Assembly (NCBI GenBank): GCA_019509785.1
Contig: JAEKLQ010000034.1
Span: 1 to 64,000 of the forward strand
Origin: Fibrobacterota bacterium
GTDB taxonomy: Bacteria > Fibrobacterota > Fibrobacteria > UBA11236
Length of the DNA stretch: 64,000 nt
Direction: 5' to 3'
In this document: in pieces, positions 23,107 through 54,977 of the stretch
Layout: each line of letters opens with the position of its first letter
Position numbering within the stretch: position 1 is the stretch's first letter
Notes under the pieces: generated by a model
The model's database searches: none
The model's input: only the letters and a program-made list of their open reading frames with translations
What the model was told of the DNA's origin: nothing
Position numbers and translations under genes: made by a program

Positions 23107-24723
23107 ATGCCCGCATCCTTTTCGGCGCCGCGCCGGAATGCATTGCTTTGGATCGCTTGCGCGGCGCTGGGAACGGTCTCCTGCGGCAAGCGCGATGAAG
23201 CCGCCCGCGGCCCATCGACCGTAAGCCATCCAGCGGTTTCCCTTCCCGCGGCCGGCGCCCCGGATACGCTGGCGGATTCCTCCGCGCTGAATGCGTCGGC
23301 TCCCGAACCGACAGCCGCGAAACCCGATGCCGGACTGACCTTCCTCTCGCATCCTCCCAAAGCCTACCTGGGCAAGGCCTTCGTCTATAAACCTTCCCTG
23401 GATTTCCCCGGCGCCTTTTCCTTAAGGCTCGCCAAGCCGGCCGATTCGACCATGAAGCTGGATCGAGGCCGTATCCTATGGACGCCCACGCATAGCGGTC
23501 GTTTTCCCGTTTTGATCGAAGCCTTCCTTTCCGATCGCTCCGGCCAGGCCGAGGGTAAGAAAACCCAACAGGGATTCATCTTGGATGTGGCGCCGGTCGT
23601 GAGCCTGGTATTACGGCCGTTACCCCCCAAGGCCCACAAGGGCGACTCGGTCGAATTCGATTTGAGGCAAAGCCGTTGGCCCGCCTGGGCGGCCGCTTCC
23701 ATCAGCGTCCGGTTCGATTGGGAAGGCGATGGCGTATGGGATACCGAAGCCCTGCCTTTGGCGGCGCAAACGCTAAGGCGGCACGCTTATGCCGCGCCGG
23801 GTCGGTTCGCGCCCAAGGTGGAGGCCCGCTACGGAAGCTACGAGGTCCAGCAGGCCGGCGGTGCAATCTCCATCGTGGGCAAGGTGACGGCATCCGTGAA
23901 GATTTCCCCGGATACGGTAGAGCCTGGAGCCGAATTCCTGGTAGACGCATCTTCTTCCCGGTCCGAAAGTCGCTTAGCGTATTCCCTCGATCTCGATGGG
24001 GACGGGAAACCGGAATGGATCGATTCCGCGTCCGGAAAGGCCACGCTTAAGGCTCCGGCATCCGGCATGTACCATGCCCAACTCACGGTCCGCGATGCTA
24101 TGGGGGAAACGGACAAGGCCGAAACCGTCTTGTGCGTCAACGCCCGGCCCAAAATCGAATTCCGGGTGCGCAATCCCAGGGACAACATGTCGGCTACCAT
24201 CGACTTCAAGATCCGCGCCAAGGACCCGGACGATTCCCTACGTTCGGTGCGCTTCAGTTACTCAGGCGGAGATAAGGATTGGGAGACGCGGGCCGCGCCC
24301 GACAGCCAGACTGGCGGGCATGAATGGTATCTGCGCCTTAAGCACGCGTATGGGAAGGTAGGGAAGTATGCCCCCAAGGCATGCGTGACTTCGGGCGATG
24401 GCCGTGAAGCCTGCCAAGAACTCCAGGTCGAAATCTTCAACGCCCCTCCCGAATGCCGCCCCGGCGGTGATCTGCATGCTACCCTAGGCCAGCCCATCGC
24501 CATCGATGGAACGGGCGTAGATCCCCACGGGAAGATCGTGAAATGGGAATGGGATTTGGACGGGGACGGCGAGTACGATCTGGTCTCCACCGAAAACGGG
24601 AAGTTCCAGTACACCTTCAGCAAGGAAGGCACCTTCAAGCTCGTGCTGCGCGTAACCAGCGCCGATGGCATGACCGCCATCGGGAGCCGCAAAGTGGAAG
24701 TGCGGAAAAAGTGGAAGACCTGA
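23107..24723 (+). CDS. PKD-domain lipoprotein, first gene of surface cluster
   Basis: The 538-residue product has a lipoprotein signal ending in LGTVSC, an Ala/Pro-rich linker and then PKD/Ig-like beta domains with the typical polycystin-type text: FDWEGDGVWDTE, SLDLDGDGKPEW and WEWDLDGDGEYDLVS. PKD domains in bacteria usually mediate surface or carbohydrate contacts. The ATG at 23107 is needed for the signal peptide and lies just after a good promoter. The FecR-domain gene begins 5 bp after the stop, so this gene probably leads the operon to 36572. Confidence 0.75.
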   Translation: MPASFSAPRRNALLWIACAALGTVSCGKRDEAARGPSTVSHPAVSLPAAGAPDTLADSSALNASAPEPTAAKPDAGLTFLSHPPKAYLGKAFVYKPSLDFPGAFSLRLAKPADSTMKLDRGRILWTPTHSGRFPVLIEAFLSDRSGQAEGKKTQQGFILDVAPVVSLVLRPLPPKAHKGDSVEFDLRQSRWPAWAAASISVRFDWEGDGVWDTEALPLAAQTLRRHAYAAPGRFAPKVEARYGSYEVQQAGGAISIVGKVTASVKISPDTVEPGAEFLVDASSSRSESRLAYSLDLDGDGKPEWIDSASGKATLKAPASGMYHAQLTVRDAMGETDKAETVLCVNARPKIEFRVRNPRDNMSATIDFKIRAKDPDDSLRSVRFSYSGGDKDWETRAAPDSQTGGHEWYLRLKHAYGKVGKYAPKACVTSGDGREACQELQVEIFNAPPECRPGGDLHATLGQPIAIDGTGVDPHGKIVKWEWDLDGDGEYDLVSTENGKFQYTFSKEGTFKLVLRVTSADGMTAIGSRKVEVRKKWKT

Positions 24724-24728
24724 ACGCC

Positions 24729-25616
24729 GTGAAAGCCCTGCGCGGGTTCGCCCTTGCGCTTAGCGCGGCTTTATGCCTGGCTTCTCAGGCCCGTGCCGAT
24801 CGCCTCGTTCTCAAGGACGGCCAAACGATTTTCGGAAGGGTGATCGACGAGAGCGATTCCGTCGTCCGGTATTTCGATCGCTACGATCGGCCCCGCAAGC
24901 TCCCGGCCGCCGATATCGATACCCTCGAGTACGACTCCCGCGATGTCCAGGGTTTGGTCAAGGTGGCCTTCCGCAAGGGCCAGACCCGGGATCGCACCGG
25001 CCATTTCCGCATCCGGCATTCCGAGGAATTGGATTTGGATGTGGAGTACAAGACCGATTCCACCGCCGAGCTGGACCTTTTCTTCCGGAACGAAGTCCAC
25101 GTGCGCGTCCTGCCCAACACACGTTTCAAGGTGGCCAAAGCCCCCAAAGGCCCGTCCGATCCGCTCCTCTTCGAACTCAAAGCGGGCCGCATCCTGGCCA
25201 CGTCCCCGCGGCCCGAAGCCTTGGTCCGCGTCATCACCCCGTGGGGCATCGGGGTAGGCCGCGGGCAATTCCAGGCCGGCGTGGTCGGCTCTCCCGCCGA
25301 TTCCTCCATGCAGATCCTTTGCCTGCGCGGGCTGACCGGCGCGCAGGAGTCGGCGCAAAGCCCGGGCGAATTGGTGGTGGAGGAAGGCAAATCGGTAAGG
25401 CTCGTGCGCAAGGAAAGCCTCTTCGATCGGCGCGCGCCCGATGCGGAGGAAGATCGGTTTTTCCGGGAACTGGCCGCCAACATGGGCCATTACCGTTTCG
25501 CACAAGTGCAATATCCGGGCATCGGTTACTTGCCCAAGGCCCTGACGGGCTTAGGCTTTATGGTGTTCTTCTACGGCACGGCCATCGGGATCCTGGACTA
25601 TGTCAATCATATCTAG
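24729..25616 (+). CDS. Exported FecR-domain protein with C-terminal membrane helix
   Basis: The likely start is GTG 24729, giving 295 residues with a signal peptide (ALRGFALALSAALCLASQARA). The centre is FecR-like: ELDLFFRNEVHVRVLPNTRF, LLFELKAGRILATS and VRVITPWGIGVGRGQFQAG. A hydrophobic helix ends the protein (GLGFMVFFYGTAIGILDYV). In iron uptake, FecR is an inner-membrane sigma regulator. Here the domain is in an exported protein with no FecI nearby, so a structural or sensing role is more likely. It overlaps the next gene by 17 nt. Confidence 0.7.
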   Translation: MKALRGFALALSAALCLASQARADRLVLKDGQTIFGRVIDESDSVVRYFDRYDRPRKLPAADIDTLEYDSRDVQGLVKVAFRKGQTRDRTGHFRIRHSEELDLDVEYKTDSTAELDLFFRNEVHVRVLPNTRFKVAKAPKGPSDPLLFELKAGRILATSPRPEALVRVITPWGIGVGRGQFQAGVVGSPADSSMQILCLRGLTGAQESAQSPGELVVEEGKSVRLVRKESLFDRRAPDAEEDRFFRELAANMGHYRFAQVQYPGIGYLPKALTGLGFMVFFYGTAIGILDYVNHI

Positions 25617-27156
25617 GACCTCCTTGGCCGCCCGGGCCGTGATGTACGCGTTGATGGCAATGCTTGCCACAGCCCTTCCCGCCCTGGCCCAATTTACGGA
25701 CTTCCAAGGCGGCAATCTGAGCCTGAAGGTGGAAGGGAACATGTCGCCTTTCGCCTTGGCCAGCAACACCGGCGCGCGCGGCGCCATGAGCAACGTCACC
25801 TCCTTGTACCCATCGGCGGCATCCTTGTTCGGCAATCCCGCCGCCCTGGCGAGCCTGCAAACCATGGACGTGCAATCCGATTTCTTCTTGCCCGGCCTGG
25901 GGTTGGGAGTCAGCAGCGAACGCACCAAAATCCTGCGCAACGATCTGCGCGCGCCCATCCAGGATTTCCTGTCGGGCGGCGACAACCACGTGGCCCATCC
26001 CAGCTTTCCGGACGTGAACCTGGGGTTGTACCAGTCCACCAACCTGGGCGGGTTCGCGGTCGCCTTCGGGGGCCCTTCCGCGACCTTGGCTGCCGGATAC
26101 CAGCAGCCATTCAGCGGCCTGATCGATTTCGGGTTGGGCGGTTTCCGCCTAGGACTCGGGATTCCCGAGGACGCATCCGATCCGCAATCGGATAGCATCA
26201 AGGTGCTGCTCTCGGTGGACGCCTTCGCCCGCTTCAAGGCGGAGTTGAACGATTTCTCCCTCGGGATTGCGGGGGAACCTTGGAAGAACCTTCGCTTGGG
26301 GTTGGCATATCAGCGCTACACCCTCGACCTGGGGCTGGATGCGGGCGCCCGGGTGGACGGCATCCTCCAGCGGGCGGGGCAGGAATCCTATTTCCACTCG
26401 CAGGACGTGAATTACCAGAACGATTTGGACGCCAAGGGCGAGGGCGCCATCACCGGCTCAGCGCACGGCGTGCGTCTGGGGGCGGCGTGGCAGCCGTTCC
26501 GGCATTTCGGCGCCGATGCCATGCTCAGCCTGGCCGAAACCATGCATTTGGATGGATCCCTCGCATGGCAATACCACATGCTGCCCGCCCTGGATTTCAG
26601 CAGCGATAAGATCCTCGATCCGGCGAAGATGAATCCCACAAAATTGACCCTGACCACCCGCACCAAAGAGGTGCTGCAGGATATGCAAGTGAACATGCCC
26701 TGGGAGGCCGCCCTCTCCTTGCATGCCAATTGGTCCGCCGTGCGCGTGAACCTCGACTACTCGTATTTCCTGCGGGGAATGTCGGTACGCTATGAACTGC
26801 TGGACAGCGTGGATGCCTTCGACAAGGAAACCAAGGATCGATACAAGGATCACGAAGGTAACGATTCCGTGGAGGTGACCCGGGCTTCCAAGATCTTCCG
26901 CCTGGGCCTGGAGCAGCAATTCGCATTGGGCATCCAGGTTTACCAAGTCTTCCTGCAAGTGGGAGGGATCGTGTACAGCGTAACGCAAGGGGACATCTTG
27001 TCCGAATCGGCGGCCTACCGCCCGGCCTCGTTCCCGTTCCTCCCCACCTTGAACCTAGGGTATTACTTCCCGTTGGGGCCGAAATTCACGACCACGGTAT
27101 CCTTGGTCGCCTTCCCCGTTGCGCTGTTCAAAACCAGCGTGGAGTACCGGTACTGA
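25600..27156 (+). CDS. Putative outer-membrane beta-barrel protein
   Basis: The 518-residue product has a signal peptide (AVMYALMAMLATALPALAQ). The body resembles FCB outer-membrane barrels: an early YPSAASLFGNPAALASLQ, comparable to the SAFYNPAG-type segment of FadL/PorV proteins, and a last aromatic strand ending TSVEYRY. It overlaps the FecR-domain gene by 17 nt and lies 1 bp before the giant-repeat gene, so the genes are almost certainly cotranscribed. It may be the outer-membrane channel or anchor of the cluster; this is inferred from position. Confidence 0.65.
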   Translation: MSIISRTSLAARAVMYALMAMLATALPALAQFTDFQGGNLSLKVEGNMSPFALASNTGARGAMSNVTSLYPSAASLFGNPAALASLQTMDVQSDFFLPGLGLGVSSERTKILRNDLRAPIQDFLSGGDNHVAHPSFPDVNLGLYQSTNLGGFAVAFGGPSATLAAGYQQPFSGLIDFGLGGFRLGLGIPEDASDPQSDSIKVLLSVDAFARFKAELNDFSLGIAGEPWKNLRLGLAYQRYTLDLGLDAGARVDGILQRAGQESYFHSQDVNYQNDLDAKGEGAITGSAHGVRLGAAWQPFRHFGADAMLSLAETMHLDGSLAWQYHMLPALDFSSDKILDPAKMNPTKLTLTTRTKEVLQDMQVNMPWEAALSLHANWSAVRVNLDYSYFLRGMSVRYELLDSVDAFDKETKDRYKDHEGNDSVEVTRASKIFRLGLEQQFALGIQVYQVFLQVGGIVYSVTQGDILSESAAYRPASFPFLPTLNLGYYFPLGPKFTTTVSLVAFPVALFKTSVEYRY

Positions 27157-27157
27157 A

Positions 27158-28705: not shown

Positions 28706-31700
28706 GGAATTCCTTCACCCGCCAAGGTATCTTCGGCGCTACGGTGCAACTGGTCCAAGGCGGGCAGACGCGCACGGCCAATACCGACGGCAACGGGGCC
28801 TTCTCCTTCTCCGTACCCGGGGGCGCGGCCTCCGTCCGCGCCTATTGCGCCGGTTTCGCGGCGCCGGAACCCGTCTCCCTCAGCGTGGACGGGGACAAGA
28901 CCTTGGCCTTCGCCTTGGATCCGAATGCCTCCATCCTATCGGGCCGGACCCGGGATCTTTCCGGCACCGGCATCCCCGGCGCCATGGTCATAGCCACGCC
29001 CAAAGCGGGCACGGTGCGGACCGCGCTCAGCGACAATCAGGGATACTTCGAGCTTAGCCTCCCGGCGGGGGACTGGATCCTGGCGGGCTCCGCGAAGGGT
29101 TACGCCTCGCAAACCACGCGCAATTTCCTTCTCGACGTCTCCAAGACCGTGCAAGGCGTGGATTTCAGCTTCGCGCCGAACGGCTCTCTCATCAACGGGA
29201 GAGTAACCATAAATGGTGGTGGACTGGCGGGGGCATTGGTGGTTTCCGGGCAAGCTTCCGCCGCTACGGATAACTCCGGCTACTACCGCCTTTCCGTAAA
29301 CACGGGAACCCAATCCGTTTCGGCCGCGAAGGAAGGCTACCTGATTCCGAAAATCTGGACCCTGCCCATCAATCCCGGGGATTCGGTGGCCAACATCGAC
29401 TTCGCGGCATCGGGCAATGCCGGCACCGTGAAAGGCCACGTGCTATCGGGCGGGGCCGGAGTGGCGGGGGCGACGGTAAAGGCGGCGAACAAGGCCACCC
29501 GGGAAACCTTCTCCCAGGTTAGCGACGGGACCGGAGCCTATGCGCTTTCCCTGCCGGGGGCCGATTACGAATTATCCGCCGCCAAAGATGGCTTCGCCTT
29601 GGACGCCCTGCTCGTTTTCAGCTTACCGGCGGGCGGTACCATCCTGGATCAGAATCTTAAGCTCGTGGCGAATCAGGGCATCGTATCTGGGACCGTCGCT
29701 AGCGGTAGTGCGGTGTTGTCCAATTGCGAAGTCGCCTATCGCGGCGCGACGGATGCGTCTTCGGCGGGGAAAACCCTGACCGATCCGCAAGGCCGGTATT
29801 CGCTTTCCTTGCCGGCCGGGGCGGCTTACCTCCTCACTACGACTTGTACGGGATATCAGCAAGGGACCGCGACGGTCGCCGCCTTGACCCGCGGCTCGGC
29901 GGCGACGCAGGACTTCAATGTGCCGGCGGCCGGAGCCACCTTTAAGGGCAAGGTCGTGGACGGGGCGGGGAAGGCCTTATCCGCCGCCAAGGCAACGGCC
30001 GCGAAAGATGGCGCATCCGTCTCGACGGCTTCCGATTTCAACGGCGCCTACGCATTCGGGCTGGGAGCGGGCGCGTATGGGCTCACGGTTTCCAAGGCGG
30101 GTTATCGTACCGTGAACCGCTCCTTAAGCCTGTCATTAGGCGACAATTCGGGAGCGGCCGATACGTTGCGGCCCTCGGTGGGCCGCCTGGCGGGCAGGGT
30201 GACCTCGGACGGGGCTCCCGTAGCGGGGGCGTTACTGAGCCTGGCGGGTTTCTCGGCCGATGCGGGCGGAGGCCTGTTCGCCACCGACGCGGACGGCCAT
30301 TATTCCGGGGACAACCTGGCCGCGGGATCCTATTCCCTTTCCGTTTCCGCCGACGGCTATGCGGACGCCAAGCTCGCCTCGCTCACGATTTCCGATGGGC
30401 AACTGACGAACGCCGATCTTGTCCTTACGGCCAACCGTTCCGCCTTGGAAGGCACGGTTCAGGCCGATGGAGTTGCGGCGGCGAATGCCGTCGTGGCGGC
30501 CACCGCCTACGGGGTGGCCCGCTCTGCGGTCAGCGGTCCCGATGGCAAGTACCGCATCGATAAGTTGCCGGCGGGCACCTACTCCTTATCGGCCACCCTA
30601 GCCGGCTACGCGGCGGATAAAACCTACGATGGCAAAGGATTGACGGCCGGCGCTACGCTCTCGGGTCTGGACTTCGCCTTGAGCCGCAACGTCGGAAGCC
30701 TTGCTGGAACGGTTTCCGGGGCCGCGAATTCCTCCGGCATCCAGGTAACGGCGGTAGGCGTCAAGAAGGGCGCGCGCAGCTATGCGGTTTGCGATGCGGC
30801 CGGGAAATATTCCATCCCATCCCTGCCCGCCGATGACTACACCCTGACCGTGGCCGCGCCCGGATACAAGATCGCCTCGGGAACCCAGTCCCCCGTGGCC
30901 ACCGTCGCAGGCGCATTGCGGTTCGACATCGCCTTGGCCCCTGCCGTCTTCAGGTTGGCGGGCGTCCTGGTCGATCAGGCCAATACCGGCATCGGCGGGA
31001 TGCCCATGGAATTGCGCGCCGGATCCTCCACGGTCCGGATCACCACCCAATCGGACGGGTCCTACGCATTCGCCGACGTTCCCGCGGGCCAGGAATACCA
31101 ATTGTCCTGCAAACCCCCAACGGCCGGATTCGATCCCAAGGACACCGCTTTCTCCTTAAGCCTCGATGCCCCGGCCACCGTCATAGCCAACCTCAGCACC
31201 TTGTCGCGCCAAGCTAGTCTCTCCGGTTCGGTCAGCTTGGACGGCGTCGCCGCGGAAGGCGCGCTCATCCGGGTCAATGGCAGCGGCAACGCTCTTACGT
31301 CGCTTTCCCAGCCGGGGGGATTCTTCAAGGTATCCGGCATCGCCGGATCTGCGCAGCCTTTATCCGTATCCGTTTCCAAATCGGGGGCCGGCGGATTCGA
31401 TACCTCCTTGATCGTGAACGTAGGGGGAAGCGTTGCCGGACTTGCCATTAAGCTGAAGACCCTGAAGTTGTCCTTGGCTGCGATCTTGTCGAGTTCAGAA
31501 GGCAAGCCGTTGGCAGGCGCGAAGGTAGTGGCGGCTTCCGCCAAACGCCTGGATACCTTGGTCACGGGAACGGACGGCAAGATCACCGTGAAAGACATTC
31601 CCGCCAACCAGGCGCTGACCTTGGCCACAGCCCTGGACAAGGATCTCTACGATAATTTGGAAGCATCCGTGTTCCTGAAAGAAGCGGATACCAGCATAGC

Positions 31701-34700
31701 CTTGCAAGCCAAGGTGCATGCCGCCAGCGTAACCGTGAGCGTGAAGGATCGGGCCGGCGATCCTGTGGACGGCGCCGACGTGCAAATGAACGGGCAGGCG
31801 CTGGGGAAGACTACCCAAGGCCGCCTCGTCGCCGCGAAGTTGGCGCGAGGCAGCTACGTATTCATCGCGGGCAAATCCGGGTACAAGAGCGGGCCCGCCC
31901 AATCCCTGTCCCTTCCGGGCGACACTTCGGCATCCGTTGATCTGATTTTGACCAAGGTGACCGGCGGCGTCTACGGTACCGTCCGCGATACCGGATTGGA
32001 TCAGGCGGGACCCGGAGGACTTGCCGTGGCCACCGCGCGCTCCCTGCCAGGCGCCATCGTAATCATGGTCGCGGGAACGGATACCCTGCGCGATACCGTG
32101 AACGACCTGGGGCAATATTCGTTGGACGGCCTGACGGAGGGCCGCCAATACCAGATCAATCTGGCCTTGCCCGGATACCGTCCGCTACTCGATTCCATCG
32201 TCGGCAACGTCCAACCCCAAGCTCGCGACCTCATCCTTCGCCCCTTTCCGGGGTCGGTCCTGGGACGCGTGTTGGGCGGAAAGTCCGGGGTTAAGATGGT
32301 GCTTTCGCATCGGGCCGGAGGCGGGACGGAGACGTTCCTCGCGCGTTACGGGGGGTACTACGCCTTCACGGGCCTGCAAAACCGCAATGATTACGTGGTC
32401 CAGGCCTTGGATGGAACGAACGGTTCGCCCGCAGTGGCTTTCCAGGCCGATGGGGCCTTGGCCAAGCGTTTCGATCCGGTCCTCGATGCTTGGGGCTCGG
32501 TCCAAGGCGCGGTCACTGGCTTTTCCGGGAACGCGGTCGCGGGCGCCCTGCTCTCGGCCCGCAATACCGTAACGGGGGCCCTTACCCTGGCGACCTCCGA
32601 TGCGGCGGGCAAGTACGTCCTGGCCGGCCTGGGAACCGGCGCATATGAACTCACTGCGGACCGGACGGGTTACCGTAGCCCTAAGGCCTCTACCGCGAAC
32701 GTTACCAAAGGCGCCCAGGCGTCCGCCGATTTCCGGTTGGAAGAAACGGTGGATGGGATCGGCGGCCTGGTGGCGGATGCGGCCGGGCGGGGAGTGGCGG
32801 CGACGGTCATACTGGTCGCGGGCAAGGATACATCGAAGCAAGAAACCGACGGCAGCGGGCAATTCGCCTTCGGGGGACTCGTCGCAGGCAGCTATAGCTT
32901 GACGGCACGCAAGGACGGCTACGCGTCTCCGGCGCCGGTTACCATCGCTTATGGCGGCAAGGGCCTGGAGAGCCGTGCCTTGGCCTTGCAGCGGCAAGAT
33001 CACCTTATCAATGGCCTGGTTCGGGATGCCTTGACCAACACTCCCTTGGCGGGAGCGCAAATCGGTGTCGCAGGAGGCGCATCCGCGATTTCCGATTCCC
33101 TCGGCCATTACCAGGTCGCGTCGCCCTCCGGAGTCCCACTGGTTTCCCTGGCGGCATCCCTGGACGGGTATCTGCCCCGGAGCGGATTGCCGGTTTATGT
33201 CGACTCCAACGGCTCCGCAACACAGGATATCGTTCTCTCGGCGGACTACCGTTTCGACGGTCGTATCAACGTGACCGTGAAGGAGGGCAAGGATCCGGTG
33301 CCGGGACTCCTCATCTCCCTGCAATCCTTCCATCCCGACGATTCCCTGGCCTTCTCGATCTCCGCGGCGGTCGCCAGTTCTTTCCGTGATCTGCGTCGCC
33401 CCGTTCCCTATACCCTCAAGGTGAAACGCGATGGCTACAAGGACTTGGTTAAGGGCGTCGAGCTCACCGCGAAGTCGCCGACCTTGGACGTAACCCTCGC
33501 GTATCCCACCAGCCGAATCCGCGTCTTCATGACCGGCGACGGGAAGCACGGCAAGAGCGTGGAGCTGTCCCTTAACGGCCAAAGCCTTCCCGAGCATCCG
33601 GATACCGCGGGACTTTACCTCAGCGGCGCCAAACTTAAACCTGATCGCTACGAAGTGGCCGTCCGGGATCGGGAAACCGATCTGATTCCCCTCGCGCCTT
33701 ATTTCATCGGCCTGGGGGAAGATAGCGTGCGCACCGATACCTTGTCCCAGCCCTTTTTCGCCGTCGCCATCCCCGACTCCACCATCGACTCGCCGTTCCT
33801 GGCCCGCGTGCGCCGGGTGGATTCCCTGCGACCCGCTCCCGCCGTGACCTGCAGCCTCTACTATCGTTCCCAAGGCGAGCCTCTCTGGAAGTCCCTGGCG
33901 ATGGATTCGACGGCCGGCGGCTTCGCGGATACCGTTCCGGCCCAAAGCCGGGCAGGCGTTTACGAATACTACTTCGCCCTGCGATCCCCCTCGGGCGCCC
34001 GCGTGGGCGTGCTTTCCGGCGGGAACGCTTCGGTGGCGGGTCTTCCCACGTCCTATTCCGGCGTCCAATCCCCTAAAACCTTCTCCTTGCGCGATCCGTA
34101 CTTATTGCAGTCGTTCGCCCTCTTGCCCCAACGTCTGGAAGCGGACACCTCCGTGTATTCGCTGGATGCGCGCGATCTTTTCCAGGCGCAAATGCGCGGC
34201 GAGAAAGGCGTAAGCCTCGACGCTTATTTCGATCGCAAGGCCGCTGCGGGCGAATCCGATTACACCGTTTCCTGGTCGTTCTCGGAACCCGACCGCGCCA
34301 AGGCCGCCGGCCTCGTGCTCGATCCGGTTTCCGGCAATCCCAGGATGATCCGCTTCTCCGGCGGCCACAAGCCTTCGGACTCGGTATACCGGATCGAAAG
34401 CGCAGTGAGGATGGGGGATGTCCGGCTCAAGAAGTCCTTCTACGTAAAAATCCAAGACCTGACCCCGGCCTCCGTCGGCATCCGCTACGTGAAAGAAAAC
34501 CGGGTCTTGGAAGAGAATGGCGCCACTCTCCCGCTGGATAATCGGAACGCTGCAGGCTATGCCTTCGCCGCCTTCGCCAAGACCGCGGATGGCCGCATCT
34601 TCAACATCCTTCCGCGCTGGTCCCTCGGGGAGGATTCGGCCGCGGGGCGGATCACCCAGCAAGGGGTGTTCTTCCCGGATTCCGCCGTGGCGCGCAGCGC

Positions 34701-35568
34701 CGTCATGAGCATCTTCGATACGCTCCGTGTCGGGGCCACCCGCACCGGGGAGGCCTTGTACGCGGCTTTCCAGGCGGACGCCGACTTGATGACCTTGGCC
34801 CAGGTGGCGCCGGCATCCAAAGGGAGCACCGTGGTCACCAACGGCGAAGGCGCCGTCCTCGAATTCAACCTGGCGGGGCTGAGCAAGGCTTTCACGGTCA
34901 GCGTTACCAAGCCCAAGGTGAGCGGCCTCTTGCGCTCTTCCCCCAAGGAAGAAGTCGTGGGCCAGATCCTCGACATCGATCTGAGCGAACGCCAGCCGTT
35001 CAAGGCCGATAGCGGGGCGGTGCTGAAGTTGCCCGTCGCCAATGGCATCGCCCGCCGCCGCACCACCTATCTGGGCCATTGGAACTCCGGGCTATTGGCT
35101 TGGGAAAAGGTCGACAGCGCATCGGCCGGCGCGGATGTTTCCGGCAAGGTCTATAGCTTTTCCAAATACGCGGTCCTAATGGGCAGTCTGCCGCTTGGCG
35201 CCTACGATATCACCTTGGCCCCCAATCCTTTCTCGGCGGACGATCCCTGGGGCCTGCAATTGGGCTACAAGGTTTCCTCCGACGTCTCCAGCCAAGTGGG
35301 CGTGCGGGTAGAGGTTTATAACATGATGGGCGACAAGGTGTACGAAAGCGAGGAAACCCAATTAGGCAAAGGGGACTTGGTGACGCCCGGAACCAAAAAG
35401 GCCGCGCCCAAATCGCCCGAGCGACGCGCGGCCCTGGGGCCTTTCGTCTGGGACGGCCGCGATACCCGGGGCGATCCCTGCCGTAACGGCCGCTATCTGT
35501 TCAAGCTAATCGTGAAGGATGGCAAGGGCAGCAAGGAATACCTGCGGAAAGTGGTGATGCTCAAATGA
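28567..35568 (+). CDS. Giant regulatory-like-repeat surface protein, 3' part after frameshift
   Basis: This is the continuation of the gene at 27158; the genuine frame begins near 28609-28665, and the ATG at 28567 lies in shadow sequence. It carries about 19 further repeats of roughly 70-100 residues (G-x-V ... G-x-x-L-x-G-A-x-V ... D-x-x-G-x-Y ... L-x-A-G-x-Y-x-L ... GY), the CarboxypepD_reg/CnaB-like pattern. About 700 mixed residues follow. The C-terminal domain (ITLAPNPFSADDPW ... VEVYNMMGDKVYES ... FVWDGRDTRGDPCRNGRYLF) is FlgD-like and resembles type-9 sorting domains. It overlaps the PorV-like gene by 4 nt. The likely role is a long fibre or adhesin on the surface. Confidence 0.72.
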   Translation: MDRGHQFPGKLFPRVAPISAALSSSSPSRTTDFALAANPYTLSGAVRNSFTRQGIFGATVQLVQGGQTRTANTDGNGAFSFSVPGGAASVRAYCAGFAAPEPVSLSVDGDKTLAFALDPNASILSGRTRDLSGTGIPGAMVIATPKAGTVRTALSDNQGYFELSLPAGDWILAGSAKGYASQTTRNFLLDVSKTVQGVDFSFAPNGSLINGRVTINGGGLAGALVVSGQASAATDNSGYYRLSVNTGTQSVSAAKEGYLIPKIWTLPINPGDSVANIDFAASGNAGTVKGHVLSGGAGVAGATVKAANKATRETFSQVSDGTGAYALSLPGADYELSAAKDGFALDALLVFSLPAGGTILDQNLKLVANQGIVSGTVASGSAVLSNCEVAYRGATDASSAGKTLTDPQGRYSLSLPAGAAYLLTTTCTGYQQGTATVAALTRGSAATQDFNVPAAGATFKGKVVDGAGKALSAAKATAAKDGASVSTASDFNGAYAFGLGAGAYGLTVSKAGYRTVNRSLSLSLGDNSGAADTLRPSVGRLAGRVTSDGAPVAGALLSLAGFSADAGGGLFATDADGHYSGDNLAAGSYSLSVSADGYADAKLASLTISDGQLTNADLVLTANRSALEGTVQADGVAAANAVVAATAYGVARSAVSGPDGKYRIDKLPAGTYSLSATLAGYAADKTYDGKGLTAGATLSGLDFALSRNVGSLAGTVSGAANSSGIQVTAVGVKKGARSYAVCDAAGKYSIPSLPADDYTLTVAAPGYKIASGTQSPVATVAGALRFDIALAPAVFRLAGVLVDQANTGIGGMPMELRAGSSTVRITTQSDGSYAFADVPAGQEYQLSCKPPTAGFDPKDTAFSLSLDAPATVIANLSTLSRQASLSGSVSLDGVAAEGALIRVNGSGNALTSLSQPGGFFKVSGIAGSAQPLSVSVSKSGAGGFDTSLIVNVGGSVAGLAIKLKTLKLSLAAILSSSEGKPLAGAKVVAASAKRLDTLVTGTDGKITVKDIPANQALTLATALDKDLYDNLEASVFLKEADTSIALQAKVHAASVTVSVKDRAGDPVDGADVQMNGQALGKTTQGRLVAAKLARGSYVFIAGKSGYKSGPAQSLSLPGDTSASVDLILTKVTGGVYGTVRDTGLDQAGPGGLAVATARSLPGAIVIMVAGTDTLRDTVNDLGQYSLDGLTEGRQYQINLALPGYRPLLDSIVGNVQPQARDLILRPFPGSVLGRVLGGKSGVKMVLSHRAGGGTETFLARYGGYYAFTGLQNRNDYVVQALDGTNGSPAVAFQADGALAKRFDPVLDAWGSVQGAVTGFSGNAVAGALLSARNTVTGALTLATSDAAGKYVLAGLGTGAYELTADRTGYRSPKASTANVTKGAQASADFRLEETVDGIGGLVADAAGRGVAATVILVAGKDTSKQETDGSGQFAFGGLVAGSYSLTARKDGYASPAPVTIAYGGKGLESRALALQRQDHLINGLVRDALTNTPLAGAQIGVAGGASAISDSLGHYQVASPSGVPLVSLAASLDGYLPRSGLPVYVDSNGSATQDIVLSADYRFDGRINVTVKEGKDPVPGLLISLQSFHPDDSLAFSISAAVASSFRDLRRPVPYTLKVKRDGYKDLVKGVELTAKSPTLDVTLAYPTSRIRVFMTGDGKHGKSVELSLNGQSLPEHPDTAGLYLSGAKLKPDRYEVAVRDRETDLIPLAPYFIGLGEDSVRTDTLSQPFFAVAIPDSTIDSPFLARVRRVDSLRPAPAVTCSLYYRSQGEPLWKSLAMDSTAGGFADTVPAQSRAGVYEYYFALRSPSGARVGVLSGGNASVAGLPTSYSGVQSPKTFSLRDPYLLQSFALLPQRLEADTSVYSLDARDLFQAQMRGEKGVSLDAYFDRKAAAGESDYTVSWSFSEPDRAKAAGLVLDPVSGNPRMIRFSGGHKPSDSVYRIESAVRMGDVRLKKSFYVKIQDLTPASVGIRYVKENRVLEENGATLPLDNRNAAGYAFAAFAKTADGRIFNILPRWSLGEDSAAGRITQQGVFFPDSAVARSAVMSIFDTLRVGATRTGEALYAAFQADADLMTLAQVAPASKGSTVVTNGEGAVLEFNLAGLSKAFTVSVTKPKVSGLLRSSPKEEVVGQILDIDLSERQPFKADSGAVLKLPVANGIARRRTTYLGHWNSGLLAWEKVDSASAGADVSGKVYSFSKYAVLMGSLPLGAYDITLAPNPFSADDPWGLQLGYKVSSDVSSQVGVRVEVYNMMGDKVYESEETQLGKGDLVTPGTKKAAPKSPERRAALGPFVWDGRDTRGDPCRNGRYLFKLIVKDGKGSKEYLRKVVMLK

Positions 35569-49107: not shown

Positions 49108-49204
49108 GGCGCGGGTAAAGCTATAAAATTGCCCGAGAAGATTCGCCGCGCGATTCCGCCCCGCGTCGCTTTGCCGAACAGCCGTGGGCGTTTACCTTGT
49201 GTGC

Positions 49205-50557
49205 ATGGTTTTCCGGGCGGCATTCCTGGCCGCGCTATTATCCCTGGCTGCCTTCGCAGGCGGGCCTGCCTGCACTTCCTTGGAGTTGGTCGGGCCGGGC
49301 GCTCCCCGCGGCGGGGCGCCACGGGAAATCCCCATTTACCTCGCCATTCCGGATTCCCTCGGGCCCTTCGCGGTACGGCCTTTCCTGATCGCGCCGCCCG
49401 AGTCTGCCAAAGCCATGCTGGCGCGGACCGAAAACGGCTTCGAGGTCATGGGGAAGCCTGAGCGTCGGTTGCTGCGCGCCTTGCGCATTTGGCTCGATGG
49501 CGACGCGCGCGGGGCAGGGGAGGAGATCGCCGCGCTTCTGCCCCACGCTTCTGCCGCATTACGACCGATCCTCAAGACCGACAAAGCCCTGCTCCTCTAC
49601 GCCGCCGGTTTCGGGCCCGATGCGGAGAAGGAGTGGCTGGCGCAATCGGCTCCTGCGGGCGCCTGCAAGGATCCGGCGCGCAAAAACCTTTTCTCATACT
49701 ACCTCGATCATCGCGAATTGGAAAAGGCCCGGTCCGCCTTGGATCGTTTCCTGGCCGCCGAACCGAAGGACAAATGGGCCAACGATGCCAAGGCCTATCT
49801 GGTGCGGCTAGCCGCTTCCGACGACGAATGGGAAGCCTTCCTGAAGGAGAAATCCGAAGGCAGGGATTCGCTCTTCGACATCCAAATCGCTTACGCCGAT
49901 TTGCTCAAGTCCCAAGGCCGTTATGAGGAATCCAAGCGTTATTATAACCGCGGTCTGGAAGGATCTCCGCGCAATGGGCCCGCCTGGTTGCAACTGGCCG
50001 AAGTCTATGACCGGCTGGAGATGCCTTTCCTCGCCTGGGAAGCGTTGGACAACGCCTTCGCCGCCGGGATCGCGGACGCGAAAGTGTTCGAGGTCCTGAG
50101 CCGGGTGCTAATGCACGCGAGCCAGTACGCGGCCGAGCGGAGATCTTGGATCGACCATGCTTTCGGCGCGCTGGACATGCGCGATCTGCGTTGGGGCTAC
50201 GGTCCGGAGTGGGCCGATCGCTGCTGGCGCATGGCGGAGATCAACCTGGAGCATGGCCTGCCCGCCGATTTCCATCGCCGTTCCTTGGCGCAATTGCTTT
50301 ATCACGTGTATTGCCACAACGGACGGGTCGATGCCGCGAAGGCTTTACGCGCGACTTTCTGGTTCCATTTCACCGGCCCTTCCATCGCCCGGGAAGCCCG
50401 GTTGCATGGACCGGAAAGGGATCCATCGGCCCCTTGCTTGTCCGTTGGCACGGCCGGTTGCCGATTCGGGAGCGGTCCCGTCCTGGACGTCAACTTGGGG
50501 TATGTCGCATACCCTCTGGCGAAAGCCGCGGCCGATTCCGATTTTTTCTTCGACTAG
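49205..50557 (+). CDS. Exported TPR-repeat protein
   Basis: The ATG at 49205 gives 450 residues with a signal peptide (VFRAAFLAALLSLAAFAGG). Several TPR-like helix pairs occupy about residues 90-330, for example LQIAYADLLKSQGRYEESKR-like and AWLQLAEVYDRLEMPFLAWE. Cys residues near the C-terminus (CLSVGTAGC) could form a disulphide. An in-frame GTG at 49184 is possible. No partner is evident; it is divergent from dcd. TPR proteins usually act as binding scaffolds. Confidence 0.65.
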   Translation: MVFRAAFLAALLSLAAFAGGPACTSLELVGPGAPRGGAPREIPIYLAIPDSLGPFAVRPFLIAPPESAKAMLARTENGFEVMGKPERRLLRALRIWLDGDARGAGEEIAALLPHASAALRPILKTDKALLLYAAGFGPDAEKEWLAQSAPAGACKDPARKNLFSYYLDHRELEKARSALDRFLAAEPKDKWANDAKAYLVRLAASDDEWEAFLKEKSEGRDSLFDIQIAYADLLKSQGRYEESKRYYNRGLEGSPRNGPAWLQLAEVYDRLEMPFLAWEALDNAFAAGIADAKVFEVLSRVLMHASQYAAERRSWIDHAFGALDMRDLRWGYGPEWADRCWRMAEINLEHGLPADFHRRSLAQLLYHVYCHNGRVDAAKALRATFWFHFTGPSIAREARLHGPERDPSAPCLSVGTAGCRFGSGPVLDVNLGYVAYPLAKAAADSDFFFD

Positions 50558-50708: not shown

Positions 50709-51965
50709 TTGGCATCGGCATGGCGAACCTTTCCTAGCGGGTCATTGATCGCCGCCTTGGTCCTGGGGGCCTTGGTGTTAGGGGCGCAAGCCCGCGGGCT
50801 TATCAATACTTGTCCCGAAGTGACCGGACGGGCCGGGGACTTGGTGGTCCAGACCCCCATTCTCCAATATACGGTCACCAATTTCGATCCCAGTTGGTTC
50901 GATACCGATCATCCGGAAAAGGCGCCCACCCTTTTCACCCTCTTCATCAATCCCGAATTCAAGAAGTACGCCAAGGCCTTGCGTCTGCGGGTGCAGGTGT
51001 TGGCGGATACTTCCCTTGGGAGGAGCCATGATCAGAACGACGTCTTGATCGCGTTCGATCGCACCTCCAATCCCCTGGACTCGATGGATATCGGCCGGGT
51101 TATCCCCTCACAACAGGTTTTCGATTTGTCCTGGGAGGCCGGAGGGGTGAGCTTCACCAAGAGTTCCTTGTATGACGTAATCCTGCAAAAGCGCGCGGCA
51201 CCCGAGATGAATCTAACCTTCAGGTTCAACCTCACTTGCGAGGACGATGTATTTATCCAGGCCCAATCCGAGCCGATCAAATTGGGCGACATCGGCCATC
51301 TCCGCTACGTGAAAATGATCCAGGCGCTTTATCCGGGCACCAGCGTCAGCAGCGCGGTTCCGGTTCCCATCTATACCGTAACGCCCATCTTCAAGGTGGC
51401 CAGCGAACTGTTCAACAAAATCGAGTTCGATTACCCTCCGGATCAACCCAAGATCGAAATCTTCCTCTACGAGGTTCCGGCGGGAACCAATCCCAAGGAC
51501 GCATTGGACGGGATGGAGTACGCCAAGTTCGGGCTCTTCAACGAATCGCCCAGCGCTTATCCCGCGGGCTTGCCGCTGCTCTTGCCTGGGATGACCTACG
51601 TCTGGCGGGCCCGGGCCGTATTGCGCGGGCCTACCACCGATTACCTCTATTCGGATCCGCTCTACTTCAAGGTGGACGAGCGTTTGGAAGGCGGATCTTC
51701 GGTCCCAGCACCGCAGGTGGGGGATATCCGCACCTTGGCCGAGCAAATCAAGTACGGGGACGATTACGGCAAGCGCGTCATGGCCGCCCTCAAGATCATC
51801 CTGGGGGATAATTTCGAAATCTTCGATCAGTCGCGTAACGGGAAGATCCCCGCCAAGGGTCAAATCCGCCTGAATGGGCATCCTTATTCTTTGGAGGAAC
51901 TGGAGCGGCTGGCGCGGGACTTCCACCAGGCGCGCCTTTCGGTGACCCGGATGAGGTTCCAATGA
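50709..51965 (+). CDS. Exported protein, first gene of second FecR cluster
   Basis: The preferred start is TTG 50709, just after a GGAGGAGGCAGGA-type ribosome site; the product is then 418 residues with a signal peptide (SLIAALVLGALVLGAQARG). An earlier ATG at 50628 would add 27 unlikely residues. The body has beta-rich segments including a late Fn3-like part (LLLPGMTYVWRARAVLRGP) and a short helical C-terminus. No family is recognised. It is coupled by ATGA to the FecR-domain gene. Confidence 0.6.
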   Translation: MASAWRTFPSGSLIAALVLGALVLGAQARGLINTCPEVTGRAGDLVVQTPILQYTVTNFDPSWFDTDHPEKAPTLFTLFINPEFKKYAKALRLRVQVLADTSLGRSHDQNDVLIAFDRTSNPLDSMDIGRVIPSQQVFDLSWEAGGVSFTKSSLYDVILQKRAAPEMNLTFRFNLTCEDDVFIQAQSEPIKLGDIGHLRYVKMIQALYPGTSVSSAVPVPIYTVTPIFKVASELFNKIEFDYPPDQPKIEIFLYEVPAGTNPKDALDGMEYAKFGLFNESPSAYPAGLPLLLPGMTYVWRARAVLRGPTTDYLYSDPLYFKVDERLEGGSSVPAPQVGDIRTLAEQIKYGDDYGKRVMAALKIILGDNFEIFDQSRNGKIPAKGQIRLNGHPYSLEELERLARDFHQARLSVTRMRFQ

Positions 51966-52657
51966 AGTTAGGGCTCGCTCTCATTGCCTTCGCGGCTTTG
52001 CCCTTGTTCGCGGCTTCCAATCCGCTGGGCGTCATCAAATCGGTAAAGGGCGATGTGAAACTGGCGGCGACGGATTCGGCCCTCGCGCCGGCGGCGGGCG
52101 CGATGTTGTTCCGCCAAGGCGCGCGCTTTGAAACGGGTGTGGAAAGCAAGGCCATGCTTCGCCTTCTGCCGGACAATGCCTTCCTGGACGTGCGGCCGCA
52201 ATCGGCTTTTACCCTGAAACGCATCAAGACCCGGGTGGCTTTGGGCCAGAAGGGAGCGGCAGCCGAAAAGGAAGTTCGGGCGCGGCGCCTGATCCTGGAG
52301 AAGGCGGAAGTGGTGGTGGGCCTCAAGAAGAAGAGCGATCCGGTGCAATGCGCGAACGCGCAGACGGTGGCTACCGCCGCGGCCGGAAGGTTTTCCTGCC
52401 GCAGCGATGAAAAAGCCACGGCCACCTTCCTGGTACAGGATGGCGAGTTGTCCATCTACAACCGGCCCAAGGATATCACGGTCACGGTACGCGCGGGACA
52501 GAAAGCGGTCTCCGATTTGGAGGGTATCAAGGTCTCCGATGCCAGCGATGCCGAGTTGGACCTGGTCGGCCTTAGCCAGAATACGCTCGAGGTCGATTTC
52601 GTGAATCCCGAAACCGAGGACTTCACGACCTTGGAAGTGGAATATGAGACCAACTAA
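51962..52657 (+). CDS. Exported FecR-domain protein of second cluster
   Basis: The 231-residue product has a signal peptide (KLGLALIAFAALPLFAA) and a FecR-like domain: GVIKSVKGDVKLAA, LFRQGARFETGVESKAML and FLDVRPQSAFTLKRI, then ATFLVQDGELSIYNR and VRAGQKAV. There is no membrane helix after the signal and no FecI or TonB receptor beside it. It overlaps both neighbours (4 nt and 14 nt), so the three genes form one unit. Confidence 0.75.
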   Translation: MKLGLALIAFAALPLFAASNPLGVIKSVKGDVKLAATDSALAPAAGAMLFRQGARFETGVESKAMLRLLPDNAFLDVRPQSAFTLKRIKTRVALGQKGAAAEKEVRARRLILEKAEVVVGLKKKSDPVQCANAQTVATAAAGRFSCRSDEKATATFLVQDGELSIYNRPKDITVTVRAGQKAVSDLEGIKVSDASDAELDLVGLSQNTLEVDFVNPETEDFTTLEVEYETN

Positions 52658-54977
52658 TCCGCTTCCGGCGCGCGCGCTCGTCTCGGCTTGGTTGATCCTG
52701 GCCGCGACGGCTTGGGGCGCGCCTACAGGACAGCCTACCGAATCGGGCGGGGATACCTTGGATACTTCCACTCCAGCGCCCAAGGGTATGGCGGCCGAGC
52801 CGGATTCGCTGCGACAAACCGTTGGGCCCGCATCCTCGGGAGTGACGGGGATGCGCTCAGCGGCAGGTGCGATGGATTCGGCGGTCGCCGAAGCCCCGCC
52901 CACCGATTCAGCGCATGACGCCTTCCTGGTTCCCATCGACGGCGATGTCTTTTACGAACGGCAAATCAAGGTGGTGGCCACCCTCGGAGGCGCCCCGGCC
53001 AGTTCGGTGCTGCTGTTGGACGGGTACCCCGAAAGCCAGCCGCTCGCATTGAACGACGGGGTGGTGAGCGCCACCCTGATCGGGCTCAAGTCGGGGGTGC
53101 ATGAATTGACCCTGTTGCTTTTCAACGAGCGGACCGAGATTATCGGCAAGCAGATGGTGCGGTTTTTCGTGCGCGTACCGGAACCCGAGCGGAAGGCGCG
53201 CGCCGGGGCCTTTCGGCAGTTCGGCCACGTATTCAGCAAGCTGGATTTGAAAAACGGCGAGGCGCAAGGCCGCGTGCTCTCCCAAAGCGAATTGAAACTG
53301 AAGCCCGGAACGGATACCGCTTTGATCGCGGGAAAGAAGGAGGCGCCCGTTTCCGAACAGCTGGATGGCGTGGCCGAAGCCGCTTACAACGTCAAGTACA
53401 AGCAGTTCGAGGCTTACGGCAAGGTGCTGGGACGCACGGATGAAAACCGGTTCCGGCAGCCAAGCGATCGCATCACCGCCAACGTGAAATACGGGCCCTG
53501 GGCGTCGCTGAAGGCGGGGGACGTCTATCCGCTCTACAATCCCTTGCTCTTGAACGGCACGCGGGTAAGGGGCGCCGAAGCCGCCTTGAACCTGACCCTG
53601 GGGGAGACTACTTGGGGGACCTTGCGCGCTGTGCGCGGCGAGAGCCGCCGAGAGGTTCCCGCTTACCTCGTCAAATACGATACCGGGGACGGGACCCGCA
53701 TTGATACCGTGCCCGGCACCTTCGCGCAGACCTTGACGGCCGTGCGTCTGGGGGTGGGAGGAGGACCGGCTTTCGATTTGGGATTCACCATCATGAAAGC
53801 TTCCGACGATGAAGGCTCGGCCGATCGATTCCGGGTGAATTCCATCCTGCATGGCGTGCGCCCGACGGAAAACGTAGTGCCGGGAATCGACTTGCGCGTC
53901 GGCGCCTGGGACGGGCGCATCCAGTTCTACGCCAACTCCGCCTTGAGCCTCTACACGCGGGACAAGTCCCTGGGGGCCTTCGCACCGGACAGCTTCCAGG
54001 TGGATTTCAATCCCAAGCATTACGAGGATTATTTCATCGTCAATTCCACCACGCGAGGCTGGCAGTACCTGTTGTCGCCCCAGAGCGGCGGCGAATCCGA
54101 CGTCAGCGGTTTCATCAGCTCGGAGAGCGCCTTGGAATCCGGCATCGTCACCTCTATCCCGTTCCAGGGGATGGTGGAGGAATTCGAATTCCGCTATTCG
54201 CATCTGGGGTTGGACTACCATAGCGAAGGCAATCCGTTCCTGGGCGGGAACCCGGGGGACGGATTCACCGTCATCGAAAAATTGTCCGTGCTCGACAACC
54301 GCGTTTCCGTGGCCATGGAGTTGGGGCAATACGGCCAGGACCTTGGCCTCACTTCCCAGGAGCAGCGTACCCTGAAGGTGGACTTGCGCTTCACTCCCGG
54401 CCCCTACAATCCCAGCTTCTGGGTCGGGGGCGGTCGATCCAATATCGTGCCCGAAGGCACATATGCCCATCAGTTCAGTTCCAGCTTCCTGAATTTCAAC
54501 ACGGGCGCGTACCACCAGTTCCAATTGTCCAACGCCAAATTGCATGCGACCGTTCTGTACGGGTTTACCCAAAGCGAATACGCCTTGCGTTCGGCTTTCG
54601 CGGACGATACCCTGCCCGACTTCCCCGCCACCCGCACCCATATCGTGAACGGCATGGTGCAATACAAGATGCGCGACGTGGGATTCCTGCCCCGCCTCTC
54701 GTACACCTTCTCGAGCAACGGGATCCAGCAGCCGACCCATTCGGTCACCATGGGATTCTTGCAGCCTTTGCTGGAGGATCGCATCAAGGTGGATTTGTCG
54801 GCGACGGTGGGGCAGTATCCCAAGACCAACGAAGTCAATGATCTCACCATGGGCGGCGCCGCCGACATCGAGTACGTGCTGGGGCCGCAGCAAACCTTCC
54901 GCCTGCGGGAAAAGCTGCTGCAATACGGGGACCGCCGCCACCTGTTGGTCGGCGCCAGTTACGAAATGTTCTTTTAG
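52644..54977 (+). CDS. Large outer-membrane barrel with N-terminal Ig-like domain
   Basis: The 777-residue product has a signal peptide, a disordered Pro/Thr/Ser region to about residue 90 and one Ig-like domain near 95-180 (VFYERQIKVVATLGG ... GLKSGVHELTLLLF). A long run of amphipathic strands follows and ends in an aromatic strand (LVGASYEMFF), typical of barrels. The size suggests 22 or more strands, but this was not modelled. It is cotranscribed with the FecR-domain gene and may be a surface export or anchoring pore; that role is inferred. Confidence 0.65.
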   Translation: MRPTNPLPARALVSAWLILAATAWGAPTGQPTESGGDTLDTSTPAPKGMAAEPDSLRQTVGPASSGVTGMRSAAGAMDSAVAEAPPTDSAHDAFLVPIDGDVFYERQIKVVATLGGAPASSVLLLDGYPESQPLALNDGVVSATLIGLKSGVHELTLLLFNERTEIIGKQMVRFFVRVPEPERKARAGAFRQFGHVFSKLDLKNGEAQGRVLSQSELKLKPGTDTALIAGKKEAPVSEQLDGVAEAAYNVKYKQFEAYGKVLGRTDENRFRQPSDRITANVKYGPWASLKAGDVYPLYNPLLLNGTRVRGAEAALNLTLGETTWGTLRAVRGESRREVPAYLVKYDTGDGTRIDTVPGTFAQTLTAVRLGVGGGPAFDLGFTIMKASDDEGSADRFRVNSILHGVRPTENVVPGIDLRVGAWDGRIQFYANSALSLYTRDKSLGAFAPDSFQVDFNPKHYEDYFIVNSTTRGWQYLLSPQSGGESDVSGFISSESALESGIVTSIPFQGMVEEFEFRYSHLGLDYHSEGNPFLGGNPGDGFTVIEKLSVLDNRVSVAMELGQYGQDLGLTSQEQRTLKVDLRFTPGPYNPSFWVGGGRSNIVPEGTYAHQFSSSFLNFNTGAYHQFQLSNAKLHATVLYGFTQSEYALRSAFADDTLPDFPATRTHIVNGMVQYKMRDVGFLPRLSYTFSSNGIQQPTHSVTMGFLQPLLEDRIKVDLSATVGQYPKTNEVNDLTMGGAADIEYVLGPQQTFRLREKLLQYGDRRHLLVGASYEMFF

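Follow-up and report, generated by a model that had tools for sequence, protein, structure and literature searches.

An Ig-like, FecR-like and predicted outer-membrane barrel gene trio in Fibrobacterota and other phyla, and its recurrent CHASE2 cyclase neighbour

Genes and proteins of the A-B-C locus

The DNA stretch considered here, in the following called the window, comprises 64,000 nucleotides (nt) of contig C34 (JAEKLQ010000034.1) of a Fibrobacterota bacterium, whose genome of 5.4 Mb is assembled into 106 contigs (GCA_019509785.1). Subject of this analysis are three consecutive genes on its forward strand, A, B and C, which encode a protein with immunoglobulin (Ig)-like domains, a FecR-like protein and a predicted outer-membrane beta-barrel (Table 1). 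A previous sequence-only reading had described an exported beta-rich protein, an exported FecR-domain protein and a 777-residue barrel encoded by overlapping genes; open reading frames (ORFs), domains and positions are confirmed, as are the overlaps of 4 nt between A and B (51962-51965) and 14 nt between B and C (52644-52657). The trio is a genuine unit, far older than the lineage of the window and present once in the window genome, where A and C are each single-copy genes. In other phyla, the usual fourth gene is D, which encodes a CHASE2 sensor with a class III nucleotide cyclase.

Read from sequence, all three proteins possess a signal-peptide-like N-terminus. Gene A starts with a TTG codon at 50709 preceded by GGAGGAGG, with the aligned start position being the same in relatives. 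As promoter and terminator patterns near the three genes do not rise above shuffled expectation, the operon structure is inferred from gene overlap and conservation.

Table 1. Positions of the trio, its protein segments and comparator genes in the window
Feature	Position	Strand	Basis
Gene A, 418 aa: signal peptide, two Ig/fibronectin type III (FN3)-like domains (approximately residues 45-177 and 200-326), C-terminal helix, small conserved tail	50709..51965	+	ORF, start, model, fold search, cross-phylum family alignment
Second Ig/FN3-like domain of A (residues 200-326), the segment recognised in distant relatives	51306..51686	+	profile search, model, fold search
Gene B, 231 aa: signal peptide followed by a diverged FecR domain that Pfam matches weakly at residues 55-159; C-terminal tail conserved	51962..52657	+	Pfam, profiles
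B, C-terminal tail LEVDFVNPETEDFTTLEVEYETN	52586..52654	+	alignment
Gene C, 777 aa: predicted outer-membrane beta-barrel	52644..54977	+	ORF, alignment, AlphaFold2 model, structure matches
C, beta-sandwich near the N-terminus, interpreted as Ig-like (residues 93-176) and preceded by a low-confidence linker (23-94)	52920..53171	+	AlphaFold2 model
C, barrel domain (residues 190-777), approximately 28-30 strands on model	53211..54974	+	AlphaFold2 model; generic outer-membrane barrel matches
C, signature WASLKAGDVYPLYNPLLLNGTRVRG (residues 286-310), with the family's densest stretch of invariant positions	53499..53573	+	invariant alignment columns
Exported tetratricopeptide repeat (TPR) protein 5' of A, seen there in the family of the window (f1) only	49184..50557	+	Pfam, locus comparison
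Comparator outside the trio: FecR-like protein at 23-36 kb, with 17.3 bits against Pfam FecR (under the cut-off) and a true start that probably lies further in	24543..25616	+	Pfam, locus comparison
Comparator outside the trio: barrel-like protein beside the 23-36 kb FecR protein; weak FadL-type match, below cut-off	25600..27156	+	Pfam, locus comparison

Window B on its own reaches 13.9 bits (E 0.074) against the Pfam FecR family, where the cut-off is 24. A profile of B from the window family f1 and from f4, on the other hand, detects the B proteins of distant families (best E approximately 1e-20), most of which score 24-55 bits and thus above the cut-off: 46.1, 28.2, 24.4 and 54.8 bits for four Fibrobacterota proteins, 53.3 bits for B of L038 and 32.3, 44.9, 45.5 and 52.3 bits for further distant B. 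One more Fibrobacterota B scores 19.6 bits and one B at a contig end is without FecR match. Because the B profile provides this link, the FecR label for window B holds, with a FecR domain that has drifted. Many of the short B proteins outside the phylum show a pattern similar to the C-terminal tail of window B, hydrophobic-E-x-x-F ... L-x-[IV]-x-[YF].

A FecR-like domain outside the cytoplasm that adjoins an outer-membrane barrel brings to mind the FecA-FecR-FecI system. That the trio represents such classical cell-surface signalling with a sigma factor is highly improbable and already disfavoured, as B carries a signal peptide while a Pfam search to E 0.1 gives just the weak FecR match and no anti-sigma domain, and as C gives no TonB-receptor match in Pfam: neither this nor any other Pfam family matches window C to E 0.1, and four distant C proteins (L064, L065, L066, L038) are equally without Pfam match. 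The initial description of a unit without sigma factor or TonB receptor can be upheld for the neighbours of the trio scanned with Pfam, among which neither is found; sigma factors elsewhere in the genome were not searched.

Protein A is beta-rich with two beta-sandwich domains, for which weak Ig/FN3-like matches are obtained (model with a predicted local distance difference test score, pLDDT, of 69.9; Z up to 7.8, whereby the tool warns of a possibly common arrangement); a solved relative was not found by sequence (best E 0.39). Protein C is predicted to be an outer-membrane barrel according to its AlphaFold2 model (pLDDT 74.4; predicted template modelling score 0.62), with approximately 28-30 strands by hand count and a C-terminal Phe. 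No Pfam or NCBIfam family matches this barrel family, which is characterized by the signature pattern GD-x-x-P...G-x-R-V-R-G, and no solved relative of C is found by sequence, the best match (E 0.051, not significant) being the profile match of its N-terminal domain to the Ig-like module 3pdd. All structure matches of C are to outer-membrane barrels, with no clear lead among ushers, MtrB, TonB receptors and porins. Foldseek ranks the FimD usher first (E 3.2e-8) with MtrB and TonB receptors tied (E 4.9e-8 to 5e-7; template modelling scores 0.3-0.4), and in a second structure aligner small porins rank first. As the matches are tied among barrel kinds, the fold of C says barrel and nothing finer. 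L039 and many Calditrichota genomes also encode a shorter barrel family, of approximately 570-630 aa, which aligns with the middle of the C profile; the representative from L039 shows similarity to the GSU2204 family over the C-terminal part of the latter (E 8.5e-7).

These protein features bear on the principal rival to a signalling role, in which C is a usher-like secretion or assembly pore, A and B act as periplasmic helper and cargo with B on the surface, and the CHASE2 cyclase only regulates or senses secretion. The top rank of FimD speaks for this explanation, as do the Ig-like domains in A, since pilus chaperones have Ig-like domains. Equally, B of f7, f8, f10 and f11 (418-897 aa; L062, L064, L065, L066, L067, L068) contains one to eight stretches of InlB B-repeats, and B displays profile-level likeness to Leptospira surface proteins, with E 1.7e-7 for Lsa33 against window B, and E 1.1e-16 for Lsa33 and 5.6e-9 for LipL45 against B of L112. 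These latter similarities amount, however, to 31-61 bits, far under the family cut-offs of 350-420, and B is short (approximately 225-230 aa) and repeat-free in Calditrichota and in the window family. As to the usher fold, with its 24 strands and plug domain, approximately 28-30 strands are counted on the C model, whose confidence is middling. FimD shares its rank with unrelated barrels, Pfam usher matches to E 0.1 are absent for window C and five distant C proteins, and pilin genes are not found near the trio. The assignment of C as an usher, without sequence support, has been set aside, and the secretion explanation as a whole is considered unlikely. In some genomes with an InlB-repeat B (f7, f8, f10, f11) the contigs end inside B.

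Distribution of the trio and its CHASE2 cyclase neighbour

Among 167 Fibrobacterota genomes, C was matched in 21, of which 19 were kept; matches in G061 and G062, extending over approximately 100 positions inside very large ORFs, and a weak second match in G001 were dropped. A was matched in 18 of the genomes, always together with C save in G079, whose contig ends inside C after A and B; for G074, the A match came only from the fetched region. In twelve genomes, a complete A-B-C lies on a single contig, with order and strand unchanged and short gaps or overlaps between the genes (G000, which is the window genome, G001, G002, G003, G007 with two copies, G008, G012, G014, G067 with C as two ORFs, G068, G074 and G076), whereby gap lengths are approximate since ORF starts were taken as the first start after a stop. 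Another seven (G004, G005, G009, G063, G077, G078, G079) are consistent with the same arrangement split by contig ends, and G075 shows C alone at a contig start. The trio spans seven Fibrobacterota families, f1, f4, f7, f8, f10, f11 and f12. In f1, C is found in nine of the ten genomes, and the trio is flanked by the same neighbours wherever the loci are long enough to tell. Only one f1 genome, the 98% complete G006, yields no match for C, A and Pfam FecR. G007 (L022) carries two A-B-C trios in direct tandem with these same neighbours and 30-48% identity to the window proteins.

Outside the phylum, C matches occur in 39 of 40 Calditrichota genomes (E ≤ 1e-6; in G182 only through the shorter barrel type of approximately 570 aa), in four of the five genomes of the small phylum of G167 and in 73 of 385 genomes around G173, Calditrichota included (E ≤ 1e-10). 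Thirty of these 73 lie outside Calditrichota and the G167 phylum, and the strongest 16 genomes (18 regions) were fetched. The same order and strand of A-B-C is observed in 14/15 fetched Calditrichota loci, 4/4 of the G167 phylum and 12/18 of the others (16 genomes). Loci without full trio show C alone (L119, L157), C followed by D with the contig starting in C (L141) or with no A or B found (L144), an A-like ORF at a distance of 2.1 and 4.7 kb and no B (L146, L158), or B-C with the contig ending shortly after (L153); the order B-A-C listed for L036 stems from an over-long B ORF. The profiles of A, B and C have been widened stepwise with earlier matches, so that later E-values are not independent and also derive from small ORF sets around C. 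In a tree of 52 C proteins, obtained by a quick method and with unequal composition and long branches flagged, all 15 Fibrobacterota rows fall into one clade (Shimodaira-Hasegawa-like approximate likelihood ratio test 96). Given its fixed order in several phyla, the trio is not a product of chance. The earlier suggestion of a recurring module in this lineage has captured a real conserved unit and is too narrow, because the trio spans several phyla with a CHASE2 cyclase as usual fourth gene elsewhere.

The gene 3' of C on the same strand belongs to one family, D, in 12/14 Calditrichota trios and 10/18 other loci. All five D proteins scanned combine CHASE2 (156-215 bits) with the class III cyclase domain Guanylate_cyc (82-100 bits). 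In the Fibrobacterota genome G067 (f8), a CHASE2-cyclase gene is located on the other side of the trio, 68 nt from A in the order D-A-B-C, and this second arrangement argues for function over inherited position alone. The tree of C requires seven changes of D-adjacency. CHASE2 is common in the phylum (133/167 Fibrobacterota genomes), and outside the trio at least eight of these genomes (G014, G045, G060, G073, G075, G078, G079, G080) have FecR and CHASE2 matches next to each other in the same orientation, with FecR in an open frame of 216-423 codons approximately 300 nt upstream of CHASE2.

Such gene neighbourhoods speak against another rival, according to which C is an uptake or efflux porin with A and B as accessory periplasmic proteins, FecR merely being structural and the cyclase neighbour incidental or inherited: D-adjacency recurs in separate lineages and in two arrangements, and FecR-CHASE2 gene pairs occur elsewhere in Fibrobacterota. 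On the other hand, the barrel matches of C are generic, and C is kept throughout most of f1 although the window genome is without a CHASE2 partner, therefore the trio must do something without CHASE2. Considering both sides, the porin explanation is held to be improbable.

A possible signal relay across the cell envelope

The reading of A-B-C, with or without D, that is cautiously preferred, and judged somewhat probable, is an outer-to-inner-membrane relay that feeds the CHASE2 cyclase, because gene order is conserved, the genes overlap, the CHASE2 cyclase recurs and comparable cases have been published. A, B and C would form one envelope complex, with C as large outer-membrane barrel from which an Ig-like domain hangs into the periplasm, and with the exported FecR-like B and the exported A with its two Ig-like domains beneath it. 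In the fuller module, D would be an inner-membrane protein with its CHASE2 sensor outside and its class III nucleotide cyclase inside. C might sense a ligand or the state of the envelope, A and B might pass the change across the periplasm, and contact of the FecR domain of B with CHASE2 of D could subsequently cause the cyclase to make a cyclic nucleotide. In the lineage of the window, where the trio has been kept with the CHASE2 partner gone, the proteins might use another inner-membrane partner or have a role in the outer membrane only. The signalling role of the trio is deduced from gene neighbourhood and published parallels; physical complex, topology, signal direction, product and function in the window organism are likewise proposed.

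Several observations weigh against a relay. Co-location of the trio with D gives no direction of the signal. In the window, the trio has no D next to it, and the same applies to every other Fibrobacterota trio seen except that of G067, to the G167 phylum (0/4) and to two of the 14 Calditrichota trios. A CHASE2 match at E ≤ 0.001 is absent from the window genome, and the only f1 genome with such a match, G001, has a weak one (E 2.0e-6). A cyclase is not found beside the window trio, and the two class III cyclases of the genome both lack CHASE2, one being an FHA-GAF-cyclase and the other showing no recognised domain besides the cyclase. Furthermore, the structure models of A and C are of middling confidence, and the InlB-type repeats in B of f7, f8, f10 and f11 hint at a surface role for B.

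One published parallel comes from Sinorhizobium meliloti, where the outer-membrane beta-barrel NsrA mediates the response of the CHASE2 adenylate/guanylate cyclases CyaD1, CyaD2 and CyaK to a plant ribosomal protein (PMC13001267). This barrel, likened to C by description only, equally couples an outside signal to CHASE2 cyclases; the trio differs in that barrel, FecR and Ig proteins are separate genes in one apparent operon and in that the window is without cyclase. In the same cyclic AMP pathway of S. meliloti, the Clr target genes include SMc02177, whose product has a FecR domain and a predicted extracytoplasmic location (PMC5498481). In Campylobacterota, CHASE2 adenylate cyclases share gene clusters with a TPR protein, a phosphodiesterase and an outer-membrane protein that has a FecR domain (PMC9239204). 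The TPR gene has a counterpart in the exported TPR gene upstream of the trio in the window family, whereas the phosphodiesterase is a difference and a separate Ig protein does not feature in that cluster as described. An exported FecR protein is shared with the CHASE2-cyclase/FecR clusters, while an adjoining CHASE2 cyclase is found in relatives and not in the window. In the BiofilmReg operon of Burkholderia, a gene for an exported LysM-FecR protein adjoins that of a CHASE2 histidine kinase, so that an exported FecR is encoded beside a CHASE2 sensor; here the output is a kinase, and a barrel is not described in the accessible portion of the source (PMC5192318).

The components as such (FecR, CHASE2 cyclase, outer-membrane protein) and the fact that they cluster have already been published. 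Apparently new with respect to the literature searched are an Ig protein encoded separately, a barrel family without a name, the multi-phylum spread and the cyclase-less form; a description of the four-gene A-B-C-D unit was not found in open-licence literature and may still be published elsewhere. The fixed four-gene unit offers a compact system in which to test how two membranes can be crossed by a signal without sigma factor or TonB, and cyclase-less copies such as that of the window are natural test cases for an independent role of the outer part. The activators of CHASE2 sensors, and the reason for their frequent FecR neighbours, are poorly known; the factors recognised by CHASE2 are stated as not known in a previous study (PMC5192318). 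A more far-reaching proposal, tentative and rather doubtful at present, would be that an ancient envelope receptor of barrel, FecR and Ig protein switches a CHASE2 cyclase across Calditrichota, Fibrobacterota and several other phyla, that the window family has lost the CHASE2 enzyme and rewired the receptor to a different inner-membrane output, and that FecR serves as a general periplasmic adaptor between barrels and interchangeable effectors.

Flanking genes and the second FecR-barrel pair

The exported TPR gene adjoins A in all seven f1 loci that hold this stretch (the window, L016, L017, L019, L021, L022, L023). In the window, dcd and glnA are located further upstream on the opposite strand. 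Downstream of C, genes for a flavin adenine dinucleotide-dependent oxidoreductase, M20 and M3 peptidases and, subsequently, RF3 are located on the opposite strand. The named nearest relatives in the scan for C are mostly Fibrobacterota metagenome-assembled genomes.

The FecR-barrel pairing had also been proposed to repeat the logic of a cluster at 23-36 kb of the window. There, too, a FecR-like gene overlaps a barrel-like gene (25600-25616), and this second, separate overlap supports the view that FecR-like domains act in the envelope. That the two units are copies of one module is, however, not supported, and this option was set aside as they have no common Pfam family beyond weak FecR matches and as the FecR protein at 23-36 kb is limited to the genus among 16 genomes searched, save for one weak partial match. 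The 23-36 kb set is a different one and consists of a PKD protein, the FecR-like protein, the barrel-like protein, a very large repeat protein and a second barrel-like protein; its FecR-barrel pair is kept in four of five other genomes of the genus. As to recurrence within the genome, A and C occur once, and an association of FecR-like proteins with barrels applies to two of the three FecR-like proteins known in the window genome (two by Pfam, plus B). The third, a FecR-PEGA-TPR protein at 7233-9281 of L027 (G000 contig C70), has genes for a histidine kinase, a beta-helix protein and an integrase in its vicinity, with no barrel neighbour recognised.

Within the 23-36 kb set, a 528-aa ORF (27119-28705) and a 2333-aa ORF (28567-35568) match adjoining parts (residues to 491 and from approximately 508) of one ORF of 2,826-2,828 aa in two relatives; near 28,600, a frameshift or assembly error therefore probably splits the window copy of this large ORF at 27119-35568.

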